From Marilutibacter spongiae (GTDB taxonomy: Bacteria; Pseudomonadota; Gammaproteobacteria; Xanthomonadales; Xanthomonadaceae), in assembly GCF_014145325.1 (NCBI RefSeq), contig NZ_JACHTF010000006.1:1-64000 (forward strand): a DNA stretch of 64,000 nucleotides, in the 5' to 3' direction. The notes beneath the pieces are model-generated. The model was not told the DNA's origin. It saw only the letters and a program-made list of their open reading frames with translations, and did no database searches. Shown piece after piece: positions 32,543 to 54,475 of this stretch. Both the position numbers and the translations under genes were made by a program. Position 1 is the stretch's first letter; every line of letters begins with the position of its first letter.

Positions 32543-33988
32543 TCACGCGGCTTCGGCCATCGTGGAATCCCGCGGGGCGGGACTGTCGAGCCGCAGCGGC
32601 TCCGGACCGAACCAGTGTAGGGCCTCCGCCGATGCGGCCACTTCACCCAGGATCAACAGTGCGGGGGCCTTCACGGCGTGCCGCGCGGCGGCTTCGGGCA
32701 AGGTGTCCAGCGTGCCGGTCACCACGCGCTGGTCGGCACGGGTGCCGTTCTCGACCAGGGCGAACGGCGTGCCGGGCGCGCGTCCGTGGGCGATGAGTTG
32801 TTCGCGCAGGCGGGTCAGGCCGGAGACGCCCATGTAGAAGGCGAGCGTCTGCCGCTCGCGGGCCAGCGCCGGCCAATCCACCGGATCGGTGCCGTCGCGG
32901 CCGAGCGCGGTGACGAAACGCACCGACTGGGCGTGCTCGCGATGGGTCAGGGGCACGCCGGCATAGGCCGCGCAGGCCACGGCCGCGGTGATCCCCGGCA
33001 CCACCTCGAAATCGATGCCGTGCGCATGGAGCACTTCCAGCTCCTCGCCGCCGCGACCGAAGACGAAGGGGTCGCCTCCCTTCAGGCGCACCACGCGCTT
33101 GCCGGCGCGGGCGTGCTCGACGAGCAGGGCGTGGATGCGGGCCTGGGTGGCCTCGTGGTCGCCGCCGACCTGCTTGCCGAGCTCGATCCTGTCGGCGTCG
33201 CGGCGCGCCAGCGCGAGGACCTCGTCGCTGACCAGACGGTCGTGGAGGATGACGTCGGCCTCGTTCAGCACGCGCAGGCCGCGCAGGGTCAGCAGGCCCG
33301 GGTCGCCCGGTCCCGCGCCGACCAGGGCGACGCTGCCCCGCGAGGGGGATGCTTCCGTGGCCAGCGCGGCGTCGAAGGCCGCCTGCGCGGCGCGGGTATC
33401 GCCGCGCCGCAGGTGCGAGGGTACCGGTCCGGCGAGCAGGGCGTCGAAGAAGCGGCGACGCGCGCCGATCTCCGGGAAGCGTTGGCGGATGCGCGTACGT
33501 TCGCGGTCGAGCAGGCCGGCCAGGTCGCCCAGCGATTCGTCCAGTTCGGTCTCCAGGCGTTCGCGCAGGTGGCGCGCGAGCATCGGCGCGCCGCCGCCGC
33601 TGGAGATCGCGACCTGCAGCGGGCCGCGTTCGACGCGCGAGGGCACCTGCACGCTCGACAGCGTCGCGTCGTCGACCACGTTGGCCCAGACCCGGCGGGC
33701 CTCGGCCGCGGTGGAGACCGCGCGGTTGATGATCGGGTTGTCGGTGGCCGCCACGACCAGCCACGCGTCATTGAGCCAGTTCGGATCGAAGCGTCCGGCG
33801 ATGTGTTCGACCCGGCCCTCGGCCACCAGCGCGGCCACGCCGGGCTCGAGCGTCGGCGCACCCACCACCACGCGCGCACCCGACGCCAGCAGCGCATCGA
33901 TCTTGCGCCGGGCCACGGCGCCGCCGCCGACCACCAGCACGCGGCGGTCGCGAAGGTCGATGAACAGGGGAAACAGGGAGGCGGGCAT
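32543..33988 (-). CDS. cysG: sirohaem synthase
   Basis: A 481-residue fusion. The N-terminal part (to about 215) is the dehydrogenase/ferrochelatase with [11 protein letters not shown]. The C-terminal part (about 225-465) is uroporphyrinogen-III methyltransferase with [12 protein letters not shown] and [15 protein letters not shown]. It makes the sirohaem needed by the sulfite reductase encoded 2 kb away. It is divergent from the LysR regulator across a 225-bp intergenic region, the natural place for shared control. Confidence 0.95.
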
Positions 33989-34213
33989 GGCATCGGGCCG
34001 GGGCAGGGATTGCAACGCTAGGCCCTGCTCCCCGGATGCGGAAATGAGCAATCGCCCGGCCGCCATGCCGAGCCGTCATAAGCGCGGGCCATCGCGCGCT
34101 GGACGGGTCGGGGGGCTTGGGCTAGTTTCGTGGCTGTCCTGCATGCACTCCACCGGCATGCCTCCATCCGCCCTGTCGCGCGCCTGCGCGGACCGGAGAC
34201 CGGAACCGCGTCC

Positions 34214-35200
34214 ATGACCCTGACCCAACTCCGCTACCTCGTGGCCATCGCCGACTCGGGCCTCAACATCACCCTGGCCGCCGAACGCGTGCACGCGACC
34301 CAGCCGGGCCTGTCCAAGCAGCTCAAACAACTGGAGGAGGAACTGGGCTTCCAGCTGTTCGTCCGCCGTGGCCGCAGCCTGGAGTCGATCGCGCCCGGCG
34401 GCGAGAAGGTCCTCACCCACGCACGGCGGATCCTGGAGGAGGCGGCCAACATCCGTGCCTATGCCGCCAACGAGCGGGGCGAGCATGTCGGGCGGCTGGT
34501 GCTGGCGACCACGCACACCCAGGCCCGGCACGTGCTGCCCAGCGCGATCGCCGCGGTCAAGCGCGAGTTTCCCCGCATCAGCGTGCACCTGGAGCCGGTG
34601 GCCGACGGCGAAGTGCTGGAGCAGCTGGCCCACGGTGCCGCGGACCTCGCCGTCCTCAGCACCGCCGGGCAGGTGCCCGATGCGGGGCTGGCGGTGCCCC
34701 TGTTCCGCTGGCGGCGCATGGTGCTGGTGCCCGCCTCGCACCCGCTGGCGCGCCTGCGCCGCACGCCGACGCTGACCGAACTGTCGCGCCACCCGCTGGT
34801 CAGCTACGAGTCCTCGATACGCCCGGAGTCGTCGTTGCGGCGCGCCTTCGCGAGCGAAGGTGTCGAGCCGCAACTGGCGATGACCGCGCGCGACGCCGAC
34901 CTCATCAAGACCTACGTGCGGGCGGGCATGGGCGTGGGACTGCTCGCGGAGATGGCCCTCGACGCGCAGGGCGACAAGGACCTGGTGGCCATGCCGGCGC
35001 CGGATGCGATCCCCGAGTGCACGGCCTGGGCGGTGTTGCCGCGCTCGCGCGTGTCGCGCGACTATGCCCTCGAACTCATCCACGCGATCGCCCCGCAGCT
35101 CGATCGGCACGACCTTCGCCGCGTCCTGGAAGGCAATGCCGAGGCCGATTGGCCGTTGCCGCCGACCTGGATCGAGCTGAGCCAGCCGATCACCCTCTGA
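34214..35200 (+). CDS. cysB: CysB-like LysR-family regulator of sulfur assimilation
   Basis: A 328-residue regulator. The N-terminal winged HTH reads L-T-Q-L-R-Y-L-V-A-I-A-D-S and T-Q-P-G-L-S-K-Q-L-K-Q-L-E; the C-terminal half is a substrate-binding fold as in CysB, which senses acetylserine and thiosulfate. The position among cys genes supports CysB; the close relative Cbl cannot be excluded. ATG 34214 gives a complete HTH; more upstream sequence adds nothing. It is convergent with cysH. Confidence 0.9.
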   Translation: MTLTQLRYLVAIADSGLNITLAAERVHATQPGLSKQLKQLEEELGFQLFVRRGRSLESIAPGGEKVLTHARRILEEAANIRAYAANERGEHVGRLVLATTHTQARHVLPSAIAAVKREFPRISVHLEPVADGEVLEQLAHGAADLAVLSTAGQVPDAGLAVPLFRWRRMVLVPASHPLARLRRTPTLTELSRHPLVSYESSIRPESSLRRAFASEGVEPQLAMTARDADLIKTYVRAGMGVGLLAEMALDAQGDKDLVAMPAPDAIPECTAWAVLPRSRVSRDYALELIHAIAPQLDRHDLRRVLEGNAEADWPLPPTWIELSQPITL

Positions 35201-35275
35201 GCGCCAGGCCCTTGCCAGCGCGCGGGGCGCGTGCGAAGCCCGCCGTCCCCGCGACGCGTGCGCGGGCGTCGGCGC

Positions 35276-36028
35276 TCAGGCGGCTTCTTCGGCGGCGACG
35301 GGCTCGTCGTCGAAATGCAGGCCGCATTCGCGCTTGAGTCCGAAGAAGCGCGTCTCTTCGGGGTTCATGCCGTCCTCTAGCCGACGCGTGGTGTGGACGT
35401 CGCCGATCGAGACGTAGCCTTCGTGCCAGAGCGGGTGGTAGGGCAGGTCGTGCCGGTCCAGGTACTGCCAGATGTCGCGGTCGGTCCAGTCCGCCAGGGG
35501 GTGCAGCTTCCAGCGGCCGTCGCGCAGCTCGAGGAAGTCGATGCCCGCGCGGCTGCGCGACTGGTCGCGGCGCAGGCCGGCGATCCACGTGCGCACGCCA
35601 AGCACCGACAACGCCCGCTGCATGGGTTCGACCTTGTGCACGCGGTTGTACTGGCCGATCGCCTCCGCACCCAGCCGCTCGAGCTGCCGCGTGCGGCTTT
35701 CGGGCCAGGCTTCGCTAGGATCGGGCTGGAAGACCTTGAGGTTCAGGCGCAGGCGTTCGCGCAGCTCGCCGATGAAGACATGGGTTTCCGGGAACAGGTA
35801 GCCGGTGTCGACCAGGACGACCGGCAGGTCCGGCGCCTGGCGGGTGGCCATGTGCAGCGAAACCGCGGCCTGCGCGCCGAAGCTGGAGGACAGCGCATGG
35901 TTGCCGGCCGTGTTCTCCAGCGCCCAGGCGATGCGGTCGGCGGCATCCAGCCGGCCCAGCCAGCGGTTGAGGTCGGCCAGCGCCTTGGGGGATTCGGCGG
36001 CGGTGATGGGGTCGGGGGGGGGAGTCAT
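35276..36028 (-). CDS. cysH: phosphoadenosine phosphosulfate reductase
   Basis: Reduces PAPS (or APS) to sulfite using thioredoxin. The 250-residue protein has the nucleotide loop [19 protein letters not shown], and the reactive cysteine in the near-terminal E-C-G-L-H-F. There is no Cys-Cys pair for an Fe-S cluster, so it is the PAPS type, which fits the APS kinase domain of CysNC. Its ATG overlaps the cysI stop (36025-36028). Confidence 0.95.
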
Positions 36029-37725
36029 GTCGTCACCTCGTAGTGCGAGGGGTGCGAATACGCCACCACGTCGCTGCGCACCAGGAAGTCGCCGAAGCCT
36101 TCGTCGGGATCGCGTTCCTTGGCGTAGCGCGCGAGCAGCGCGTCGAGCTCGGAGAGGATCTGCGCCTCGTCGATGTTCTCGCGGTGCAGGGTGTTGAGCC
36201 GCTGGCCACGGTGGTCGGCGCCGAGCATGAGGTTGTAGCGGCCGGGGGCCTTGCCGACCAGGGCGATCTCGCCCAGGTAGGGGCGCGAACACCCGTTCGG
36301 GCAGCCACTGACGCGCAGGTTGATCGCCGCGTCGACCAGGCCGTGACCGGCCATGAGCGAGTCGATGCGCGACACCAGCGCCGGCAGGTAGCGCTCGGCC
36401 TCGGCCATCGCCAGGCCGCAGGTGGGCAGGGCCACGCAGGCGATCGCGTCGCGCTGCAAGGGGGTGGCGCTGCGGTGGGCGTCGAGCGCATAGACCGCGA
36501 CCAGGGCGTCGATCGCCTGGCGCCGGGCGGCTGGGATCCCGGCAATCACCAGGTTCTGGTTGGCCGTCATCCGGAACTCGGCGCCCTCGCCGTGGCCCTC
36601 CAGCAGGCGTGCGATCTCGCGCAGCCCACTGAGGTGGCGCACGGTCTCGTCGTCGACGATGCGACCGGCCGGCAGCGCCAGGGTCAGGTGCCAGCGACCA
36701 TCCTCGCCTTCGATCCAGCCGAAACGGTCGTTGTTGTGTTCGAAAACGAACGGACGGGCCGGGGCGAGAGCGAACCCGGCACGCCGTTCAACCTCATCCC
36801 TGAAAGCCTCCAGTCCATGGTCGTCGATCGTGTACTTGAGCCGCGCACGCTTGCGCACCTCGCGGTTGCCCCAGTCACGCTGGGTGGTGACCACCGCCAC
36901 CGACACCGCCTTCAGGCCTTCGGCCGGCACGAAGCCGATCACGTTGGCCAGGCGTGGGTAGGTCTCGGCATCCCCATGGGTGGCGCCCATGCCGCCGCCG
37001 ACGGCGACGTTGTAGCCGACCACGCGGCCGCGCTCGATCACGGCGATGAAGCCCAGGTCCTGGGCGAACACGTCGACGTCGTTGAAGGGCGGGATCGCGA
37101 ACCCGATCTTGAACTTGCGCGGCAGGTAGGCCTCGCCGTAGATGGGTTCCTCCACCTGCGGCGTGCCGGCGACCTGCTCCTCGTCCAGCCAGATCTCGTA
37201 GTACGCGCGGGTGTTGGGCAGCAAGTGCTCGGAGACCGCCGCGGCATGCGCGTAGACCTCGGAATGGGCAGCGGACTGCAGCGGATTGGCGGCCACGGCG
37301 ACATTGCGGTTAACGTCGCCGCAGGCCGCCAGCGTGTCGATGAGCGCGGCGTTGATCGCCTGCATCGTCGATTTCAGCTCGGTCTTGATGACGCCATGGA
37401 ACTGGAAGGCCTGGCGCGTGGTGATGCGCAGGCCGCGTTCGGCGAAGGTGGTCGCCACGTGGTCGAGCTTCAGCCACTGCGTTGGCGTGACCACGCCGCC
37501 GGGGGTGCGGGTGCGGATCATGAAGCTGTAGGCCGGCTCCAGCTTGGCTGCGCGGCGTTCCTCGCGGATGTCGCGGTCGTCCTGCTGGTAACTGCCGTGG
37601 TACTTGATCAGGGTCTGGTCGTCTTCCCGCAGCGCGCCCGTCAACGGGTCGGCGAGGCTTTCGAGCAGGCTGCCGCGCAGGCCGATGCTGGCGCGCTTGA
37701 TGTCTTCGACCGAATGCGTGCTCAT
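36025..37725 (-). CDS. cysI: sulfite reductase haemoprotein beta component
   Basis: Six-electron reduction of sulfite to sulfide with sirohaem and a 4Fe-4S cluster. The 566-residue protein has the cluster cysteines in [10 protein letters not shown] and [10 protein letters not shown]. It starts with ATG at 37725, one base after the cysJ stop region, and overlaps cysH by ATGA, so cysJ-cysI-cysH form one unit. Confidence 0.97.
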
Positions 37726-37726
37726 G

Positions 37727-39550
37727 TCAGTAGACGTCCCGTGCGTAGCGACCCTGCTGCTGCAGGCGGGCCAGGTAGTCCTCGGCGTCCTCGGCCGAGC
37801 GGGCGCCATGCTCGACGATCACGTCCAGCAGCGCCGCATGCACGTCCTTCCCCATGCCGATCGCGCCGCACACGTAGAAATGGGCGCCTTCCTCGAGTCG
37901 CGCGTACACCTCGCGCCCCTGATCGCGCAGCTTGTGCTGCACGTAGACCTTGTGGGCCTGGTCGCGCGAGAAGGCCAGGTCGATCCGGTCCAGGTGGCCG
38001 TCCCTGAGCGCGCGCTGCCACTCCAGCTGGTACAGGAAGTCGGTGCGGAAGTGCGGATTGCCGAAGAAGAGCCAGTTGCGTCCGCTGGCGCCGGTGATGG
38101 CGCGTTCCTGCACGAAGGCGCGGAACGGCGCGACGCCGGTGCCTGGACCCACCATGATGATGTCCCGCGTGGGGTCGGCCGGCAGGCGGAAGCGTTCGTT
38201 GGCCTCGACGTAGACGGGCAGGCGGTCGCCCTCGGTGGCGCGGGCGAGGAAGTTGGATGCGCAGCCCCAGCGCGACTGCCCGTCGACCGCGTACTCGACG
38301 TGGGCGACGGTCAGGTGGATCTCGTCGCCGGCGTGCTTCTGGCTGGACGCGATCGAATACAGGCGCGGAGTCATCGGCCGCAGTGCCGCGACCAGCGAGG
38401 CCGCGTCCCATTGGGCGGGATGGCGCTGCAGAAGGTCGATCACCTGCTGCTCGTCGAACAGACGGGCCAGGGCGTCACGGCCGTCGGGCTCGAGCAGCGC
38501 CCCCAGCGCCGCATCACCGGCGCGTTCGGCGTGCGCGGCAAGGAACGGGCGCGAGAGGCGCGTGAGCTCGCGCTTGTCGCCCAGCCATTCGCGCAGCGGA
38601 CGAGTCTCGTCGGCCAGGTCGACGGCCTGGTCGCCATCAAGGCCCAGCGCGTCGAGCACGCCCTGGACCAGGGCTGGCGGGTTCCGCGGCCAGATCCCCA
38701 GCGCATCGCCGGGCTCGTAATGCAGTCCCGAGTCCTCCAGGGACAGTTCGAAATGGCGGACGTCGCGTCCGCGCGGCGTACGCAGGCCGCCGGGGGCGGA
38801 CAGGGCGTGGCCGGCGAGCAGTTCCGCATCGAAGGGACGGTCGCGGTCGAAGGCCGGCGCCGCGGGCAGCGGCCGCAGGGGCGTGACGGTCGCACTGCGC
38901 GCCGGGCTGGCCTTGGCCAGCGCCTTGGCGGCCTCCACGGCGCGTGCCATCCAGGGCGTTGCGACGCTGTCGATGTCGAGGTCGGCATCGCCGCGTTCGA
39001 ACAGCCGGCTGGCGCCCAGCTCGGCCAGGCGCGCGTCCAGCACGCGTCCGATCTCGCAGAACTGCGGGTAACTCGAATCGCCCAGGCCGAGCACGGCGAA
39101 CTTCAGCTCGGGCAGCTTCGGCGCGCGGCGTCCGCGGATGAAGTCGACCAGGCCGATGGCGTCGTCCGGGGGATCGCCTTCGCCCTGGGTGCTGATGACG
39201 ATGTAAAGCTGGCGTTCGTCCTTGAGTTCGCGGGTCGGGTAGGCGTCCGCCCGCAGCAGGCGCACGCTGGCGCCGGCGGCCTCGCTCTGCGCGGCGAGTT
39301 TCTCGGCCAGGCGCTTGGCATTGCCGGTCTGGCTGCCGTACACGATGGTCAGGGTCGGCGACGCCGTCGCGCCAGTCACCGGGGCCGCGATGGCCGGCGC
39401 CGGGCGAGTGACCAGGGCCTGGCCGCGGGCCAGGCCGGCGGCATAGCCCGACAGCCACCACAGGCCGGAGCCGTCGAGGCCGTCGGTCAGCTGGTTCAAC
39501 AGGCCGGCCTGCTGGTCGGTCAGGGGCGCGGGGGCGGGGGAGGCGGGCAT
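37727..39550 (-). CDS. cysJ: sulfite reductase flavoprotein alpha component
   Basis: Passes electrons from NADPH through FAD and FMN to CysI. The 607-residue protein has flavodoxin loops [10 protein letters not shown] and [12 protein letters not shown] motif [13 protein letters not shown] motif G-P-G-T-G-V-A-P and the terminal aromatic A-R-D-V-Y. It is soluble. Compare the membrane-anchored relative at 46393-48036, which has the same domains but a different job. Confidence 0.97.
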
Positions 39551-45655: not shown

Positions 45656-46399
45656 ATGGGGCATGACACCGAGATCCACGGCGACGGCGTGCTGCGCGTC
45701 GTGCCGGCCAACGAGTACCGCCGCGTGCGTTGGAAAAACGGGCGCGGCTGGACGCGCGAGGCGGTCCAGGGCCGTCTCGTGCAAGGACCGGGAGGCCCGG
45801 CATTCCCGGAAGGCAGCGACCAGGACGCCGGCCCGCAGCTTGGCGACGGGAATGCCGATCGCAGCGCCTCCGATGACGCCTGGGACTGGCGCCTGTCCAT
45901 CGCCGAAATCGACGAGGACACGGCGTATTCGTGTTTTCCGGGCATCGATCGCGAGCAGATGCTGCTCTCGGGCAACGGTCTGCGCCTGCGCATCGGCGGG
46001 CATGCCGTGAGCCTCCTGCCGCCGCACGACCGCCACGTCTTCCCCGGTGAGGCGGCTGTGTTCGCGGAGCTGGTCGATGGACGCGTCCAGGCCATCAACC
46101 TGATGTGGCGGCGCGGCCGCGTGGCGTTGCAAAGCTGGTTCAGGCCGCTGGTCGGTCCGATGCTGGTTTTCGCCGACCCCGCCGAGACCTGGGTCGTCCA
46201 TCTCGTCTCCGGTCACGCCGACCTGGACCGGGCGAACGCAACCCCCCGGCTGGAGGCCGGCGACACCATGGTGCTGCAGGGGCTGGGACACCGCCGGCGC
46301 TGCTTGATCGAAGGCGCGGGCAGCGTGTTGCTCGCGCGCATCGCGCCGGTCTCCGTCGATGGCGAAGCGGCCGCGGGGCCGTCGGCGACGCCTCAGTAG
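45656..46399 (+). CDS. HutD/Ves-family cupin protein
   Basis: A 247-residue protein of the HutD/Ves family (bicupin), linked to histidine use or cold response elsewhere; function uncertain. Family blocks are R-W-K-N-G-R-G-W-T-R-E, W-D-W-R-L-S-I-A-E-I, and the middle F-P-G-I-D-R. A stretch of about 40 Gly/Asp/Gln-rich residues between the first two blocks is longer than usual and likely a loop. TACACT ends 7 nt before the ATG with no ribosome site, suggesting a leaderless mRNA. Its end overlaps the convergent reductase gene by 7 bp. Confidence 0.85.
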   Translation: MGHDTEIHGDGVLRVVPANEYRRVRWKNGRGWTREAVQGRLVQGPGGPAFPEGSDQDAGPQLGDGNADRSASDDAWDWRLSIAEIDEDTAYSCFPGIDREQMLLSGNGLRLRIGGHAVSLLPPHDRHVFPGEAAVFAELVDGRVQAINLMWRRGRVALQSWFRPLVGPMLVFADPAETWVVHLVSGHADLDRANATPRLEAGDTMVLQGLGHRRRCLIEGAGSVLLARIAPVSVDGEAAAGPSATPQ

Positions 46400-48036
46400 A
46401 TGTCGCGGCGGTAGCGTCCGGCCTCGACCAGCGCGTCGACCCCGGCGTCGCCCAGGGCCTCGCGCAGCGCCGCGTCCACCCCGGGCGCCATGCCTTCCAG
46501 GCTGCCGCACACATGGATGGACGCGCCCTCGGCGACCCAGCGCACCAGCCGCGGCGCCTGCTGTCGCAGCGCGTCCTGCACGTATTTCAACGCCCCCGGA
46601 TCGCGCGAGAACACCAGGTCGAGGTGCTCGATCTCGCCGGCGGCCGACCAGGCCGCCAGCTCCTCGCCGAAATGCAGGTCGTGCGCGCGGGTACGCTCGC
46701 CGAACAGCAGCCAGTTGCGATGGTGGCCGCGTTCGCTCCGGGTCTTCAGCAACGCGCGCAGCCCGGCCAGTCCGGTGCCGTTGCCGACCAGCACCAGGGG
46801 ACGGTCGTCGCTGGGCGCATGGAAGGCGCTGTTGCGGCGGATGCGCAGGTCGATGCGGGCGCCCGGGGGCGCATGGTGGGTCAGCCAGCCGCTGCCGCTG
46901 CCCAGGCGGCCGTCGTCGTGCCGTACCTGGCGGATGAGCAGGACGAGCGCGCCTTCGCCGGTCGTGGACGCGATGGAGTACTCGCGGTGCGGCAGTGCCT
47001 GCAGGGCGTCGACGATCGCCTGCGCATCGCCCGGCGCACCTGGCGGCCGCGTCGCGGGCAGGCGCGAGGCCGCCAGGGCGTCGCGCAGGCGCATGCCGGT
47101 CTCGCCGGAGCGAACGGGTTGGTCCCCGTCCAGGCCGCTCGCCAGCAACCAGGCGTCGACGTCGGCCGCCGCATGGCGTGGGCCCACTTCGGCGATGTCG
47201 CCGGCCTCCCAGTCCAGGTCCGTCGCATCGTCGGGGCGAAGCGACACCGCGTAGACGGGGCCGCCCGGGCTGCCGGGATTGAGGTGGCGGCGTTCGAGCA
47301 GGCGCCAGGGACGGTAGGCCGGAGGGCTCCAGTCCGGAATCCCGGTATTGCCGCCCAGTTGCCCGAGGTGCTGTTGCCATGCACGCAGGGCCCCCGGGTC
47401 GCCGTTGTCGACCTCGATCAGGTCGAACAGCGGATGCGCGTGGCTGTGGCGGAGCCATGCGTCCAGCGCATGCCCGAACGCGCAGTACGCCTGGTACTCG
47501 CGATCGCCAAGGGCCAGCACGCCGTACTGCAGGGCGCCGAGCGCGGCGGGCGACTGCATCGCGCGGCGGACGAAGGCCAGCGCGGTGTCGGGTGCGTCGC
47601 CTTCGCCCGTGGTGCTGGCGATGAACAGGACCCGGCGGGCCTGCGCGAGCTGCTCGATGTCCAGCCTGCCCAGGTCGGTCACGCGCACGGACTGGCCCGA
47701 GTCCCGGAGCGCCTGTGCGCTCAGCTCGGCGAGGGCCTCGGCATGGCCGGTCTGGCTGGCGTGGACGACCCACCAGTCCGCCGCCGTTTCCGTCGCGGGC
47801 GCCACCCGGGCCACCCCAGACAGGCGGCGTTGCAGCACCACCAGGCCGGTGAAGCCCGCCCACAGCAGGGCGACAGCCGCGGCGGCCCAGGCGCGCACGC
47901 TGCCGGGTGCGCGCCACTGCAGGGGCTCCACCTGCCAGCCGGCCAGGGCGATGCACAAGACCAGCAGGCCGAGCACGACGACGGCCTGGCCCAGGGTCGA
48001 GGCCTCGAGGCGCGGCTGCATCCGCCCGGTGTTCAT
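46393..48036 (-). CDS. membrane-anchored NADPH flavoreductase (CysJ-like FMN/FAD protein)
   Basis: A 547-residue inner-membrane diflavin reductase. Two membrane segments come first (about 16-36 and 47-68), then a cytoplasmic flavodoxin domain (V-V-H-A-S-Q-T-G-H-A and I-A-S-T-T-G-E-G-D-A), an FAD domain (H-R-E-Y-S-I-A-S), and an NADPH domain (L-V-G-N-G-T-G-L-A, V-C-G-S-L-E-G-M) ending in the aromatic R-R-D-I-Y. It is the electron entry of the proposed chain: NADPH to FAD to FMN to a membrane acceptor. It is the last gene of the PepSY-DUF2271-DUF4198-apbE operon and overlaps apbE by an ATGA (48033-48036). The membrane anchor sets it apart from CysJ. Confidence 0.88.
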   Translation of the reverse strand: MNTGRMQPRLEASTLGQAVVVLGLLVLCIALAGWQVEPLQWRAPGSVRAWAAAAVALLWAGFTGLVVLQRRLSGVARVAPATETAADWWVVHASQTGHAEALAELSAQALRDSGQSVRVTDLGRLDIEQLAQARRVLFIASTTGEGDAPDTALAFVRRAMQSPAALGALQYGVLALGDREYQAYCAFGHALDAWLRHSHAHPLFDLIEVDNGDPGALRAWQQHLGQLGGNTGIPDWSPPAYRPWRLLERRHLNPGSPGGPVYAVSLRPDDATDLDWEAGDIAEVGPRHAAADVDAWLLASGLDGDQPVRSGETGMRLRDALAASRLPATRPPGAPGDAQAIVDALQALPHREYSIASTTGEGALVLLIRQVRHDDGRLGSGSGWLTHHAPPGARIDLRIRRNSAFHAPSDDRPLVLVGNGTGLAGLRALLKTRSERGHHRNWLLFGERTRAHDLHFGEELAAWSAAGEIEHLDLVFSRDPGALKYVQDALRQQAPRLVRWVAEGASIHVCGSLEGMAPGVDAALREALGDAGVDALVEAGRYRRDIY

Positions 48037-49043
48037 GGCGTGGGCAGGTGGCGGGCGAACGCCGGCGTCATGCGCTGGCGGAAACCCTCGCCATCGTGGA
48101 CGAAGAACAGCACCGCGAGATCGTGGTCCAGCGCGTAGCGCCAGCCCTCGTGCGGGCCCAGCACGCTCATCGCGGTCGCCAGGGCGTCGGCCTGCATGCA
48201 GTCGCGGTGCAGGACGGTGACCGAGGCGAGCGCATGCGCGACCGGGCGTGCGGTGCGCGGGTCGATGGTGTGCGAGTAGCGCTGCCCGGCGTCATCGAAG
48301 AAATGCCGGTAGTCGCCGGAGGTCGCCATGGCCAGGTCCTCGAGTGCGACCACGATGCCGTCGTCGCGGGCCGTGCCGTCCTGCGGGTCGGGGCGCTCGA
48401 CGGCGACATGCCACGCGCGCCCCTCCGGGTGGCGTCCGCGTGCACGCAGCTCGCCGCCCACCTCGACAAGCCAGGCGGTGCTGCCGCTGGCGTCGAGGTA
48501 GTCGGCCACGCGATCGACGGCGTATCCCTTCGCGATCGACGACAGGTCCACGTACAGGCCACCCGGCTGGATCGCCACCCGGCGCGCCGGATCGATCGCC
48601 AGGCGCTGCCAGCCCGTGCGCGGCCTGGCCGCGGCGATCGCCGCCCCGGTGGGCGCGGCGAGGCGTTCTCCATCCGGGCCGAAGCCCCAGAGATTGACCA
48701 GCGGGCCGACCGTCGGGTCGTAGGCCCCGCCGGTGTCGGCCGCCAGCGCAAGCGCCGCCTGCAGCACCCGGAAGAAGCCCTCCGGCAGCACCTGCGCGGT
48801 GCCGGCCGGCGCGGCGTTGAAGCGGCTGATGTCGGAGCCGGCCTCCCAGGTGCTCATCTCGGCCACGACCTCGTCCAGCTGCCCCTGGATGCCGGCGCGC
48901 AACGCCGCCTCGTCGCGGTCGGAGGCGACGGTCACCTGCCAGGTGGTGCCCATGCTCTGGCCGGCCAGGTGCCGGACCTGCCCCGCCTGGGCCGCCAGCG
49001 GCCAGAGCAGGAGCGCAAGCACCAGGGCGAGGGCGGGGCGCAC
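48033..49043 (-). CDS. apbE: FAD:protein FMN transferase
   Basis: A 336-residue periplasmic enzyme that moves FMN from FAD to a threonine/serine of target proteins. A signal peptide (residues 1-20) precedes the ApbE fold, with M-G-T-T-W-Q-V-T near the start, Y-D-P-T-V-G-P-L-V-N-L-W-G-F, L-S-S-I-A-K-G-Y-A-V-D, and the metal region T-I-D-P-R-T. No lipobox. The likely target is the DUF2271 protein encoded two genes upstream, which has an ApbE motif. It is inside the iron operon, not next to nqr or rnf genes. Confidence 0.95.
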   Translation of the reverse strand: MRPALALVLALLLWPLAAQAGQVRHLAGQSMGTTWQVTVASDRDEAALRAGIQGQLDEVVAEMSTWEAGSDISRFNAAPAGTAQVLPEGFFRVLQAALALAADTGGAYDPTVGPLVNLWGFGPDGERLAAPTGAAIAAARPRTGWQRLAIDPARRVAIQPGGLYVDLSSIAKGYAVDRVADYLDASGSTAWLVEVGGELRARGRHPEGRAWHVAVERPDPQDGTARDDGIVVALEDLAMATSGDYRHFFDDAGQRYSHTIDPRTARPVAHALASVTVLHRDCMQADALATAMSVLGPHEGWRYALDHDLAVLFFVHDGEGFRQRMTPAFARHLPTP

Positions 49044-49055
49044 GACGGACGCGCC

Positions 49056-49865
49056 CTAGAGCGGCAGGACTTCGAGGGTGGCGACGTAGCTGGCGCGACG
49101 CTCGCCGGCGCCGGGCAGCGAGGTCTTGTCGTCGCTGTGGCTGGTTTCCATCCAGTACATGCCGGCGGTCGGCCAGGTCACGCTGAACTTGCCTTCCGCG
49201 TCGGTGGTCAGGGTGATGGTGTCCTGCTGGTCGCGATAGCGGGTCGCGCCCGGCACGATCTCGATCTCCAGCCCCGCCGCCGGCTCGCCGTCGAGCAGCA
49301 ACTGGAACTGCGCCGCCTCGCCGGCGTAGAGATCGTTGGGGTGCGTGACGGGCGCGAGCTCGAGGCCCTGGCCGGTCGGCTTGAACACCGCGGTCGTCGG
49401 GGCACCGACGGTCACGAAGGTCTCCACCCGGCCGGCGCTCTCGGAGGCGCGCACCTGGGTCGCGCGGGCGGGGAGGGCGGTCTTGAAGTCCGCGGCGCTG
49501 CCACGCCAGCGCTTGTTCTCGCCGTCGAGGACATAACTGGCGAACATGCCCTGGTTGACCATGGCCAGCCGGTAGGTGCCTTCCTGCGCCAGCTCCAGGT
49601 CGAACACGCTGCGCAGCTTGCCGGTCGACGCGTTCTGCGGCGACACGCGGCTGCCGTCGGGCGCGGTCACCTGCAGGCGCTCGAGCGCGAGCGGCACATG
49701 GTTGAAGTAGAACAGGTCGTTGGACACGGCGGCATCGACCGTCATCCAGGCGCCCTTCTCGGAGAACACCGTCTGCGAGGGCTGCAGCCAGGCCTTGTGG
49801 GCGAACGCGGTGGGGGCGATGCCGAGGGTGAGTGCGACGGCGAGGGCGATGTGGTGGAGTTTCAT
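49056..49865 (-). CDS. DUF4198 periplasmic protein with N-terminal histidine
   Basis: A 269-residue protein. The signal peptide ends A-F-A, so the mature protein should begin H-K-A-W-L-Q-P-S. DUF4198 relatives commonly start with His and a Trp soon after, and several are placed with metal (nickel or cobalt) uptake genes. The rest is beta-sandwich-like with internal L-A-P-V-T-H-P-N-D-L-Y-A-G-E (a typical carrier-domain pattern). ATG 49865 has AGGAG 6 nt upstream. Function unknown; metal binding by the N-terminal His is a guess. It is in the iron operon. Confidence 0.85.
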   Translation of the reverse strand: MKLHHIALAVALTLGIAPTAFAHKAWLQPSQTVFSEKGAWMTVDAAVSNDLFYFNHVPLALERLQVTAPDGSRVSPQNASTGKLRSVFDLELAQEGTYRLAMVNQGMFASYVLDGENKRWRGSAADFKTALPARATQVRASESAGRVETFVTVGAPTTAVFKPTGQGLELAPVTHPNDLYAGEAAQFQLLLDGEPAAGLEIEIVPGATRYRDQQDTITLTTDAEGKFSVTWPTAGMYWMETSHSDDKTSLPGAGERRASYVATLEVLPL

Positions 49866-49918
49866 CGGTATCTCCTGCGGGAAGGGGGCGTCGTGGAAAG
49901 CGGCCGGTAAAGGACCGC

Positions 49919-50434
49919 TCAGGGCGTGAGGGAAAGCGTCACCGCGCCGAGTTCGCTGGAACCCGACGCCTGCTTCCGGGCGGGCGCCCGGACCGGCCAG
50001 CTGAAGGGGATGCTCACGACCTCGCGGCCGCCGACTTCGCGGGCGGCTTCCACCACCAGGGTGTAGTCGCCCGGGGCGAGGTCGGCGAGCGGTGCCTGGC
50101 CGCTCCTGAAGCTGAGCTGGTGCTGGCCGGCGGGCCGGGTCGCGCCGCTGACGCCGTCGACCGGCATCTTCAGCGTGCGTCCGCTGCGCCGCCACCACTG
50201 GCGCATGTCCTTGAGCCACTTGGTGCCCTCGCCGTCGCGCATGTCGACGTCGTACCAGACGGCGAGGTTGGCGGCGACGCTGTTGTCGGGGCGCTCGACC
50301 CACACCGCGACGTAGGGCCGGTGGTACTCGGCCACGTTCAGGCGCGGGATCTCCAGGCGGATGTCCATGTCGGCGGCCGCGGCCGCGAACGGGGCGAGCA
50401 GCATCAACATCAGGGCAGTGCGGGACGGCTTCAT
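49919..50434 (-). CDS. DUF2271 periplasmic protein, candidate flavinylation target
   Basis: A 171-residue protein with a signal peptide (cleavage near A-A-A-A-D, residue 22). The key feature is D93-G94-V95-S96-G97-A98-T99, which matches the ApbE target pattern D-x-x-(S/T)-G-A-(T/S); T99 would carry the FMN. DUF2271 proteins are typically coded with PepSY and DUF4198 genes. Close to the motif is K-W-L-K-D-M-R-Q-W-W. The neighbouring apbE fits. If flavinylated, it would be the periplasmic electron carrier of the operon. Confidence 0.85.
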   Translation of the reverse strand: MKPSRTALMLMLLAPFAAAAADMDIRLEIPRLNVAEYHRPYVAVWVERPDNSVAANLAVWYDVDMRDGEGTKWLKDMRQWWRRSGRTLKMPVDGVSGATRPAGQHQLSFRSGQAPLADLAPGDYTLVVEAAREVGGREVVSIPFSWPVRAPARKQASGSSELGAVTLSLTP

Positions 50435-50462
50435 CGGGGGCTCCGTTGGATGGGCGGGTGCG

Positions 50463-51104
50463 TCAATGCATGAACAGGATGACCACGAGCGCCGGCACCG
50501 CCAGGCCCGCGGCCACCAGCGGCCAGGTCGAGCCGCGCTGGCGCGCGTGGAGTTGCAGCAGCCACAGCCCGGTCAGCGCGAACAGCAGGCAGGCGATGGC
50601 GAAAATGTCGATGAACCAGCGCCAGACCGCCCCGGTGTTGCGGCCCTTGTGCAGGTCGTTGAGCCAGGCGATGGTGCCGCGCGTGGTCAACTCGTATTCG
50701 ACGGTGCCGGCGTCGCGGTCGATCGCCAGCCAGGCGTCGCCCCCGGGGCGGGGCAGCGAGACATAGACCTCGCCTTCGGACCATTCCGCCGCGCGTTCGT
50801 CGACGCGCACGCCCAGTTCCGCGTCCAGCCAGCGGCGCAGGCTGGCGGGCAGCGGTGCGTCGCCGGCAATACCGCCCTGCAGGGTCTTGAGGACGCTGGT
50901 GGGCAGTTCGCCGGTGACGCTGGTCACCGTCGGCTCGGCCTCGATCTGCGCGGCATGGTTGAGCGTGATGCCGGTAACCGTGAACAGCAGCAGGACCACC
51001 AGGCTGACCGCGGCGCTGATCCAGTGCCACTGGTGCAGGGTGCGCAGCCAATAGCCGCGGCGCTGCTGTGCGGTGGCCGGTGCGGCCGGGCGGGATGCGG
51101 TCAA
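50463..51104 (-). CDS. PepSY-associated membrane protein, probable b-type cytochrome
   Basis: A 213-residue protein with three predicted membrane segments (about 28-49, 162-184, 192-212) and a periplasmic loop of about 110 residues that is PepSY-like (E-V-Y-V-S-L-P-R-P, then A-I-D-R-D-A-G-T-V). Histidines H24 and H27 lie before TM1, H50 at its end, H152 just before TM2 (N-D-L-H-K-G-R-N-T-G), and H186 just after it: placements used for haem in related membrane flavocytochromes. It is first in the operon, with the Fur-like promoter 40 nt upstream. Confidence 0.85.
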   Translation of the reverse strand: MTASRPAAPATAQQRRGYWLRTLHQWHWISAAVSLVVLLLFTVTGITLNHAAQIEAEPTVTSVTGELPTSVLKTLQGGIAGDAPLPASLRRWLDAELGVRVDERAAEWSEGEVYVSLPRPGGDAWLAIDRDAGTVEYELTTRGTIAWLNDLHKGRNTGAVWRWFIDIFAIACLLFALTGLWLLQLHARQRGSTWPLVAAGLAVPALVVILFMH

Positions 51105-51142
51105 GCGTGGGGTTCCGTCGAGCGCGGTCGGGCGGGCCGCGT

Positions 51143-51171
51143 ATTACAACAAAAATGAGAATTAGTCGCAA
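51143..51171 (-). promoter_or_regulatory. sigma-70 promoter overlapped by Fur-like box (PepSY operon)
   Basis: On the minus strand, TTGCGA (51166-51171) and TGTAAT (51143-51148) are separated by exactly 17 bp. The 19-bp stretch 51153-51171 reads TTGCGACTAATTCTCATTT, a Fur-box-like dyad covering the -35 and spacer. The ATG is at 51104, about 36 nt after the predicted start site. The layout equals that at 54390-54418. Confidence 0.7.
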
Positions 51172-51201
51172 TTGCGAACCGCCCGCAACTGCGCGCGGCG
51201 C

Positions 51202-51894
51202 TCAGGTTTCGCTCCAGCGCCTGAGCAGGTTGTGGTACACGCTGGTCAGCCGCAGCACGTCCTCGCGGGCGGCGCCGGCCGCCGTCAGCGACTGGATCGA
51301 AGCGTCCATCTCGAACAGCAGGCGGCGCTGGGCGTCGTCGCGCACGAGGCTCTGCACCCAGAAGAACGACGCCAGGCGCTCGCCGCGTGTCACCGGTTCC
51401 ACGCGGTGCAGGCTGCTGGACGGATACACCACCAGGTCGCCAGCGGGAAGTTTCACCTCGTGCTCGCCGTAGGTGTCGTGGATCACCAGCGCGCCGCCGT
51501 CGTAGCTGTCCGGATCGCTCAGGAACAGGGTGCAGGACACGTCGCTGCGCAGGTGCATGGCGGGCATGCCCGGCGGGGTCGCCAGGCCCATGACCGCGCC
51601 GTCCACGTGGAAGCCGTACTGGCCACCGCCGCGATAGCAGTTGAAGCGGGGTGGCAGGGTCCGCGCCGGCAGGGCCGCGGCGAAGTACAGCGGGTTGCGC
51701 GCCAGCGCCGCCAGCACCTGTCCGCCAAGGGCCTGGCGCAGCGGCGCATCATCGGGCAGCTGCAGGTTGTGCTTGACCTGGGCGCCCTGCGCACCGACCG
51801 TCGCACGGCCATCGGTCCAGTCGGCGGCGCCGAGCGCGTCGCGCATCGCCGCGACTTCTTCCGGTCGCAGGACGTCGGGGATGTGCATCAGCAT
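51202..51894 (-). CDS. piuC: PKHD-type Fe(II)/2-oxoglutarate dioxygenase
   Basis: A 230-residue hydroxylase of the PiuC/YbiX family, often co-expressed with catechol-siderophore receptors. Iron ligands H96, D98 (G-F-H-V-D-G) and H163 (S-S-S-L-H-R-V), with R173 for 2-oxoglutarate. The start ATG 51894 has GGAGAG upstream. It follows the receptor gene by 70 bp on the same strand. The substrate of PiuC proteins is not known. Confidence 0.92.
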
Positions 51895-51964: not shown

Positions 51965-54277
51965 TCAGAAGCGGTAGTTGACCGTCAGCAGCGCCGATCG
52001 CGGCTGCCCCGGGGTGTAACGGTAGCCGCTCTTGTTGATCGCGGCGACATACTCTTCGTCGAACAGGTTGTAGACGTTGAGCCGCAGGTTCCACTGCTCG
52101 CTGAAGGCGTAGCTGGCGACCGCGTCGAACACCCAGTAGTCCTCGGCATGGGCGGGCGTACCCACGGCGCCGTCGTTGCCGCGCTTGAGCTCGCCGGAAT
52201 AGCGCGCGCCGCCGCCAATGGTCAGGCCCGAGTCGAACGCATAGGTCGACCAGGCGGTGAAGGCGCGGTCCGGGGTGTAGGTCAGCTCGTTCGAACCGTC
52301 GACGGCGACGCCGGGGCCCTCGATGACTTCGGTGTCCATGGTGGTGAAGCCGGCCGACACGGCCCAGGCGTCGGTGATCTGGCCGACCGCGCTCAGCTCG
52401 ATGCCGCGTACGCGCTTCTCGCCGTTCTGGTAGTACTGCTGGTCGGTCGGATCCTGCACGATCTCGTTCTCGATCGTCGTGTCGTACAGCGCCGCGGTCA
52501 GCAGCAGCGAGTCGCCGGCCAGGGTCCACTTGGCGCCGACTTCCGCGGTCTTCGCCTTCTGCGGGTCGAACGCCGGGTTGTTGGCGCTGTTGGCGGAATT
52601 GCTCAGCTCGAGGCTGCCGCCGCCCGGGGGCTGCTGCGAGATGGCGTAGTTGGCGTAGAAGCTGGACGCGGCGGTCGGCTTGTACAACGCGCCGAGCTTC
52701 CAGTTGAACAGGGTGTCGGAGCTCTCGGCGTCGACGTTGGGCAGCACGGTCCCCACCGGGAGGCCGTTGCAGTCGGGGCCGCGACGGCCGCCGCAGGCGG
52801 CGAAGTTGCTGAACTCGCTGTCGTAGCGGTCCACGCGCAGGCCGCCGTTGAGCTGCCAGCGCTCGCCGAACTTGACGGTGTCGAACAGGTAGGCCGAGAC
52901 CGTGTCGGTACGGCCTTCGCCGTCGGCGCCGGTGCGGCCCCAGCGCAGGCCGCCCACGTGCGGGTCGGGCGCGTAGAGGTTGGCGTCGGGCCAGGCGCTG
53001 CCGTCGAGGGCGCCCATGCCGGTGATGTCGAGTTCCTCGCGGGTGACCTCGACGCCGGCGGTGAAGTCGTGCGTCACCTCGCCGCTGCCGAACGAGCCGG
53101 TCAGGCTGGTCTGGTTGGTCGCGATGGTGTTGCGGTTGTCCTTGAAGGTCGGCAGGTTGCGCGTGATCGTCCAGCCCGAGGGGTCGGCCAGGTCCGGGGT
53201 GGTGAGGTTGCCGGCGCCGCCCATGAACGCCGTCAGCATGTACTCCTGGTGCGAGCGGCCCCAGCGCGTGGTGTTGCGCAGGATCATCGCGTTGTCGAAC
53301 TGGTGTTCGACGTGCAGGCTGAGCATGTCCGCGGTGACGTCGTCGTAGTCCGACAGCGTGCCGTAGTAGTTATCGCGGTCGACCTTGGGCGCGTCGCCGA
53401 TCTCGGGACGCGTGGGGTCGGGCGAGGTGTAGCCGGGCAGGCCGATCGTGGAGACGCCGCCGTCGGGGATGTTGTCCTGCTGGACGTGCAGCAGGTCGAA
53501 GAACACGCGGGTGGCGCCGTCCAGGCCGAAGCCGAACGAGGTCGCCACGCCCCAACGGTTGTTCTCGACCACGTCGCGGCCGGGCACGTCGCTGTCCTGC
53601 GCCATCAGGTTGACGCGGAAGGCATTGCCGTCGCCGAAGGTCTGGTTCCAGTCGGCGGTGGCGCGTTTCTGGTCGTCGGTGCCCAGCGACAGCGACGCGG
53701 CGCCGGCGTTGCGCAGGTAGGCGTGCTTGGTCACCAGGTTGACCGAGCCGGTGGGGGAACTGCGGCCGGTATCGGTGCCGGCGGGGCCCTTGGTCACCTC
53801 GATCTGCTCGACGTTGAAGATGTCGCGGGTGATCGAGCCGACGTCGCGCACGCCGTCCACGAAAATGCTGCTGGAGCTGTCGAAGCCGCGCATGTAGATC
53901 GCGTCGCCGGTGGTCGTGTTGCCGTTCTCGCCGACGTAGAAGGTGCCCACGCCCGGGCTGTTGCGCAGGGCTTCGGTCAGCGAGGTCGCGCCCTGTTCGG
54001 TGAACAGGTCGTTGCTGATCACGTTGATCGTCTGGGTGGTGTCGACCAGTGGCTGGGTGAACTTGGGCGAGGAGAGCTCCTCGTTGAGGTAGCGCTTGAC
54101 CCGCTGCCCGTGCACTTCCAGGTTCTCCAGGGTCTTGGTGTCGGCATCGGCGGCGACCTCGCCGGCGGCGTGCGCTGCGATCGGCGCGCCCAGCGCCAGG
54201 CCGGTCAGCAGCGAGGCGGCGCCCAGCGAGCGGGCCGTGGAGGGGCGGGGGTGCTTGCGACTCTTGATGTAGGACAT
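51965..54277 (-). CDS. TonB-dependent siderophore receptor (Fiu-like)
   Basis: A 770-residue outer-membrane receptor. Signal peptide of about 45 residues (cleavage near I-A-A-H-A-A), a plug domain ([33 protein letters not shown]), and a beta-barrel ending in the canonical aromatic N-Y-R-F. Plug features match catecholate receptors Fiu/PiuA. A short internal loop has two cysteines ([10 protein letters not shown]). I start at ATG 54277 (M-S-Y-I-K-S). Upstream lies the Fur-like promoter. Confidence 0.93.
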
Positions 54278-54389
54278 TTCAAATCCATTGACGTGCGAGC
54301 GCCCGGCGCGGGGCCGGGCAGGGGAGGCGTTCGGGATCGGGGCTGGCCGGCTGCGCGGGGCAGGCGCTGGCATCCCTGTTCAGGGCGAC

Positions 54390-54418
54390 ATTAGAACGCA
54401 ATCAAGAATGATTCGCAA
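54390..54418 (-). promoter_or_regulatory. sigma-70 promoter overlapped by Fur-like box (TonB receptor)
   Basis: On the minus strand TTGCGA (54413-54418) and TCTAAT (54390-54395) are 17 bp apart. The stretch 54400-54418 reads TTGCGAATCATTCTTGATT, close to a Fur box and alike in sequence and place to the one at 51153-51171. Predicted start site is about 105 nt before the ATG at 54277. Confidence 0.72.
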
Positions 54419-54475
54419 TAGCTTTATCGACAAAAAGGTGTCGAAAAGCGCCCGGACGAATGGGCGCGCGGCCCG

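Follow-up and report, generated by a model that had tools for sequence, protein, structure and literature searches.

Five contiguous genes in a 64,000-nucleotide stretch of the Marilutibacter spongiae genome (hereafter the window, meaning the whole 64-kb stretch analysed) probably encode a Fur-repressed, trans-envelope ferric reductase that serves iron assimilation. They specify a PepSY_TM-like membrane protein, a DUF2271 protein, a DUF4198 protein, ApbE and a membrane-anchored diflavin reductase. A complete candidate route is thus encoded in a single transcription unit, which makes the donor, the conduit, the carrier and the metal binder testable gene by gene.

We propose that iron shortage would derepress the operon along with the Fiu-PiuC receptor unit next to it. 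Anchored in the membrane, the reductase would draw electrons from cytosolic NADPH (reduced nicotinamide adenine dinucleotide phosphate) via flavin adenine dinucleotide (FAD) and flavin mononucleotide (FMN), and would pass them to presumed haems of the PepSY_TM-like protein and so to the periplasmic face, a direction and order of flow that we infer. From the PepSY haem the electrons would pass to the DUF2271 protein, on whose Thr99 ApbE is predicted to place a covalent FMN. That flavin would then reduce ferric iron, the presumed acceptor, brought in by the receptor. The DUF4198 protein, with a predicted N-terminal histidine that may bind metal, would most likely capture or position iron at the reduction step or pass Fe(II) on, and Fe(II) would probably be handed on to FeoB, a protein for Fe(II) uptake that is present in the genome.

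Operon layout and Fur-like promoters

All five open reading frames were confirmed at 46393-51104 on the minus strand, and the Pfam domain assignments of their products all exceed the family cut-offs. The operon and the adjoining unit comprise the following features:

50463..51104, minus strand: PepSY_TM-like membrane protein (PF16357, 266 bits; 213 aa; TTG start)
49919..50434, minus strand: DUF2271 periplasmic protein, predicted covalent FMN carrier (PF10029, 175 bits)
49056..49865, minus strand: DUF4198 periplasmic protein, predicted metal-binding (PF10670, 207 bits)
48033..49043, minus strand: ApbE, FAD:protein FMN transferase (PF02424, 293 bits)
46393..48036, minus strand: membrane-anchored CysJ/CPR-like diflavin reductase (PF00258, 81.5 bits; PF00175, 30.7 bits)
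51145..51175, minus strand: Fur-box-like promoter element in front of the five genes (two 19-mers that overlap, at 51151 and 51157; matrix scores 20.3 and 19.5 bits)
51202..51894, minus strand: PiuC/YbiX-type Fe(II)/2-oxoglutarate dioxygenase, adjoining unit (NF003975, 343 bits)
51965..54373, minus strand: Fiu-type catecholate TonB-dependent receptor, adjoining unit (NF007349, 1098 bits against a cut-off of 686)
54398..54422, minus strand: Fur-box-like promoter of the receptor-piuC unit (site at 54404; matrix score 24.3 bits)

These positions and domain scores agree with the five contiguous genes and families proposed in an earlier reading made from the sequence alone. The sequence in which that reading listed the genes is a supposed order of electron flow, and differs from the order of transcription, which is PepSY, DUF2271, DUF4198, ApbE and reductase, with successive spacers of 28, 53 and 12 bp and a 4-bp overlap between the last two genes. 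The receptor and piuC lie directly upstream on the same strand, and their matches to NF007349 and NF003975 bear out the co-oriented unit that had been described there.

Fur-like sites were the only type of regulator site searched for in the window. Against the plain 19-mer Fur consensus, the PepSY site has 12 and the receptor site 13 matching positions, and a few other places score equally. Because this consensus is too weak in G+C-rich DNA, we relied on a position weight matrix trained on promoters of other genomes, namely the receptor promoters of 25 loci. Across all 64 kb, the matrix scores the receptor promoter highest and the operon promoter second, and the next unrelated place reaches 7.6 bits; the two matching promoters of the sequence-only reading are thus the two best places of the window. 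A congener (L043) carries a Fur-like site identical to that of the operon promoter.

The presence of a separate site in front of the operon follows the distance to piuC. An own Fur box is absent (0/15) in family loci where the operon starts at most 51 bp after piuC, and present in 17 of the 21 with a larger gap (Fisher p 7e-7, shared ancestry not corrected). The reductase genes in most loci therefore stand behind a Fur-like site, either their own or that of the receptor. Fur control of the operon is supported by these sequence features, by their conservation and by the published behaviour of the Caulobacter ortholog described below. The conserved switch between an own Fur box and a single unit with receptor and piuC links the presumed reductase chain with that receptor and its dioxygenase; mutations in receptors of the Fiu class have been linked to cefiderocol resistance in other bacteria (PMC12004947).

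Components of the candidate electron chain

The reductase aligns to the E. coli CysJ-type structure 6efv across the flavodoxin and FAD/NADPH domains, and its motifs REYS, GTGLAG and C-terminal RYRRDIY are kept across the family. Two N-terminal hydrophobic segments (15-33 and 50-68, by hydropathy) argue for membrane anchoring, and the charge distribution places the flavin domains most likely on the cytosolic side. Against the CysJ model TIGR01931 the protein scores 207 bits, below the cut-off of 668. A canonical CysJ (762 bits) is encoded at 37730-39529 with CysI adjoining, and this pair, 7 kb off, rules out the operon reductase as the sulfite reductase flavoprotein of the genome. CysJ, a CysI-type NIR_SIR protein and the siroheme synthase CysG form a canonical sulfite-assimilation set at 32543-39550 on the minus strand; since this set stands apart at 32.5-39.5 kb, we do not regard the operon reductase as a sulfite enzyme.

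Direct electron exchange between the reductase and the PepSY protein can be argued from natural fusions of the two. In a sample of 60 further loci from across the phylum, all selected for DUF2271, a PepSY_TM-flavodoxin-reductase fusion was recognized by profile in ten, eight of which have ApbE; in two loci (L087 and L089), Pfam places PepSY_TM and the flavodoxin-FAD-NAD reductase in one polypeptide. These fusions support the putative reductase-to-PepSY step.

Hydropathy shows three hydrophobic segments in the PepSY protein, at 29-47, about 165-183 and 194-212. Four of its histidines (27, 50, 152 and 213) are invariant among 50 family homologues, and two more (24 and 186) occur in 48. The predicted topology puts His 24, 27 and 186 on the cytosolic and His 50, 152 and 213 on the periplasmic side, so that three of six nearly invariant histidines lie near each predicted membrane face, as the suggestion of histidines placed for haem had implied. 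We propose that the protein may act as a bis-histidine haem electron conduit; the structural model, whose membrane part has low confidence, shows no clear pairing of the two conserved sets for two haems. Two larger PepSY_TM proteins are encoded elsewhere in the genome. Separately, we observed a FoxB/HiuB-like layout in which the gene for a PepSY_TM protein follows that for a TonB-dependent receptor directly (G000 contig C39, L092:6779-11258).

The DUF2271 protein carries the motif D93-G-V-S-G-A-T99, in which SGAT at 96-99 fits the published ApbE target [S/T]GA[S/T]. Both Thr99 and Asp93 are conserved in 50/50 family homologues, and the target motif recognized in the sequence-only reading is thereby upheld. 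The residue before the target threonine is proline in 32 of the 50, which is looser than the published pattern. The window ApbE matches solved FMN transferases with E 3e-72. Genome-wide family searches found no second ApbE, no second DUF2271 and no FMN_bind protein, which leaves DUF2271 as the sole ApbE substrate among the families searched. A DUF2271 protein of Amantichitinum ursilacus is flavinylated by its ApbE, and loses the modification on a Thr-to-Ala change (PMC8238504). Thr99 is thus the predicted covalent FMN site.

Other arrangements of these genes were seen in the sampled loci. ApbE and DUF2271 form one polypeptide with DUF4198 nearby in L084, L085, L088, L090 and L141, and in the four family loci with such fusions the aligned target motif is altered to ARPTR. 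PepSY, DUF2271 and DUF4198 occur without a local ApbE or reductase in L111, L112, L115, L117 and L120, where the motif reads D-A-V-T-S-A-[T/S]. The planctomycete Thalassoglobus neptunius (L189) has adjacent DUF2271 and DUF4198 genes, with an ApbE-DUF2271 fusion further off.

In the DUF4198 protein, an A-x-A cleavage site is followed by His23 in 49/49 homologues, which makes His23 the predicted mature N-terminus; His175 of the precursor is conserved in 49/49 and His56 in 47/49. An N-terminal histidine was previously reported as a trait of DUF4198, present in 79% of sequences (PMC12537917). A Foldseek search with the AlphaFold model (mean pLDDT, the predicted local distance difference test, 84) retrieved Zcp structures (PDB 9mhi-9mho) at 1e-15 and Ni-bound IsDUF4198 (PDB 9gcb) at 7e-11. 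The shared fold comes with 15-20% identity. IsDUF4198, which likewise starts with a metal-binding histidine, binds nickel through that residue and His18, with a dissociation constant (Kd) of 18 nM and a preference for Ni(II) in vitro, and has been linked to nickel genes elsewhere (PMC12537917). Unlike it, the window protein has no histidine at the spacing of His18, and His56 and His175 are conserved instead.

The N-terminal histidine predicted in the sequence-only reading thus stands, but it suggests metal binding more than membership in the electron chain: with a homologue that binds metal through its mature histidine, the protein is better read as a probable periplasmic metal-binding protein than as an electron carrier. 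A more specific role, which we think rather unlikely, would be that of a dedicated periplasmic iron carrier whose N-terminal histidine holds iron during reduction by the DUF2271 flavin, after which Fe(II) would pass to an inner-membrane importer. If true, this would be a reductase-chaperone pair, new to bacterial iron uptake to our knowledge.

Conservation and competing explanations

Of the 50 family loci of this type that were sampled, 48 keep the complete set of five genes in this order, which rules out a chance assembly of unrelated genes. The receptor and PiuC lie upstream on the same strand in 35 loci; DUF2271 itself was found in 61 of the 119 genomes sampled from the family. When scored against the window's Fiu, the piuC-linked receptors split into two classes, with 16 at 850-1840 and the other 21 at about 260-400, from which it appears that the operon is kept as its receptor partner changes. 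Receptors of the second class were noted beside piuC in L038, L039, L045, L048, L049, L052, L056, L059-L061 and others, where the unit often leads directly into the PepSY operon.

In the phylum-wide sample, where calls of gene presence depend on the score cut-offs chosen and on profiles derived from a single family, 46 of the 60 loci carry PepSY-DUF2271, and 45 of the 46 have DUF4198 nearby; the ten loci with the fusion are separate from these. Among the same 46, a nearby ApbE was found in 28, a reductase in 27 and PiuC in 14, the orientation of PiuC differing between loci.

Several observations weigh against the proposed iron reductase. The PepSY model has no solved-structure match with E <0.001, FoxB included, and its membrane part was modelled at low confidence; the PepSY profile, too, found no solved relative and no match to FoxB. 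The haem geometry therefore rests on conserved histidines and predicted topology. The in vitro preference of the DUF4198 homologue for Ni(II) makes it conceivable that the metal is not iron. Moreover, the reductase and ApbE are not universal, as 19 and 18, respectively, of the 46 PepSY-DUF2271 loci outside the family lack them nearby at the thresholds used.

The same electron chain could instead serve mainly another metal (nickel, copper or cobalt) or periplasmic redox protection, in which case the control by Fur would be indirect. Homologues lend this some substance: IsDUF4198 binds nickel via its N-terminal histidine (Kd 18 nM) and is linked to nickel genes elsewhere, the DUF4198 fold matches Zcp, which was solved with copper, zinc and cobalt, and in Bordetella a PepSY_TM protein, CrpH, supports copper enzymes. 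We nevertheless regard it as quite unlikely, because Fur-like sites are the only regulator sites that were looked for and detected, the operon adjoins PiuC and a Fiu-type siderophore receptor, a pair of a kind linked to it in most family loci, and the Caulobacter ortholog reacts to iron supply and to fur.

There is also little probability that the PepSY-DUF2271-DUF4198 core is fed from elsewhere, for example by quinol, while the CysJ-like reductase serves another acceptor, such as a cytosolic siderophore or haem enzyme. The five genes, reductase included, are kept together in 48/50 family loci, the reductase has two N-terminal membrane segments, and the same type of reductase is fused directly to PepSY_TM in other loci; what speaks for a different donor are the 19 of 46 loci outside the family without a nearby reductase at the threshold used. 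Alteromonas PepSY proteins near TonB receptors have been proposed as inner-membrane permeases, and by analogy the window protein could import a siderophore that the remaining proteins process. With three transmembrane segments only, conserved histidines near both membrane faces and no place in such a scheme for ApbE, DUF2271 and the reductase, this is extremely improbable, and FoxB, HiuB and VciB are described as reductases. A Fur-controlled ferric reductase remains the explanation that we favour.

Unrelated to the operon, two heptamer arrays lie side by side at 990-1214 of the window (AATCCCC x17.6 and CGAATTA x14.4) and adjoin 2.6 copies of a 307-bp unit (177-965).

Comparison with known systems

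FoxB is a solved ferric siderophore reductase of the PepSY superfamily. Pseudomonas FoxB and Caulobacter HiuB are described as ferri-siderophore reductases with transfer across the membrane through haems held by paired histidines, the mechanism proposed for the PepSY protein of the window, and their genes adjoin TonB receptors. FoxB is, however, larger, and the descriptions found mention no DUF2271 or ApbE partner; where the FoxB type has two PepSY domains, four helices and the FoxB fold, the window protein has 213 aa and three hydrophobic segments. Vibrio cholerae VciB is PepSY-like with extracytosolic Fe(III)-reducing activity, a likeness that we take from the descriptions of others and from no alignment of our own, but it is not associated with flavinylation genes (PMC8238504).

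A closer relation is to the PepSY-like flavinylation clusters, of which a 2021 survey (Meheust et al.) counted 3220 and for which iron reduction was proposed (PMC8238504). These combine PepSY (PF03929/PF16357) with ApbE, DUF2271 and DUF4198, and their authors link them to iron reduction, TonB receptors and Fur (PMC8238504). The five-gene set of the window falls among them, with PF16357 (266 bits) and the ApbE family PF02424 (293 bits) in one operon. The survey describes NAD-binding domains on the PepSY gene itself (PMC8238504), whereas the window reductase is a separate membrane-anchored protein.

The closest counterpart is CC3059-CC3063 (CCNA_03155-03159) of Caulobacter crescentus, which has the same five families in the same order and is Fur-controlled. 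The Caulobacter vibrioides locus (L163) shows this five-gene order with identities of 61% for PepSY, 53% for DUF2271, 45% for DUF4198, 46% for ApbE and 51% for the reductase. CC3059-CC3063 is bound by Fur, and its expression rises 12- to 51-fold when iron is limiting or fur is mutated (PMC3751524), and insertions in the operon cost fitness in ethylenediaminetetraacetic acid (EDTA) (PMC12004947). A co-conserved pair of Fiu/PiuC type, CciT/CciO, is present as well, but judged by locus numbers (CCNA_00027-00028) it lies far off, whereas the receptor and piuC of the window are directly upstream.

Since Caulobacter has this operon with an identical gene order, under Fur regulation and with a chelation phenotype, the combination is not new, and the novelty suggested in the sequence-only reading falls away. 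Our literature search, with most subscription journals outside its reach, found no demonstration of the full NADPH-to-iron route. Similarly, iron stands as the likely target, but the ferric siderophore named as acceptor is a guess, the Caulobacter phenotype being on EDTA. The gene set and the broad assignment to iron reduction were right, and both the part played by DUF4198 and the order in which electrons pass are left to inference. Set beside the Caulobacter operon, that of M. spongiae is a well-conserved and well-testable example of an already known type.

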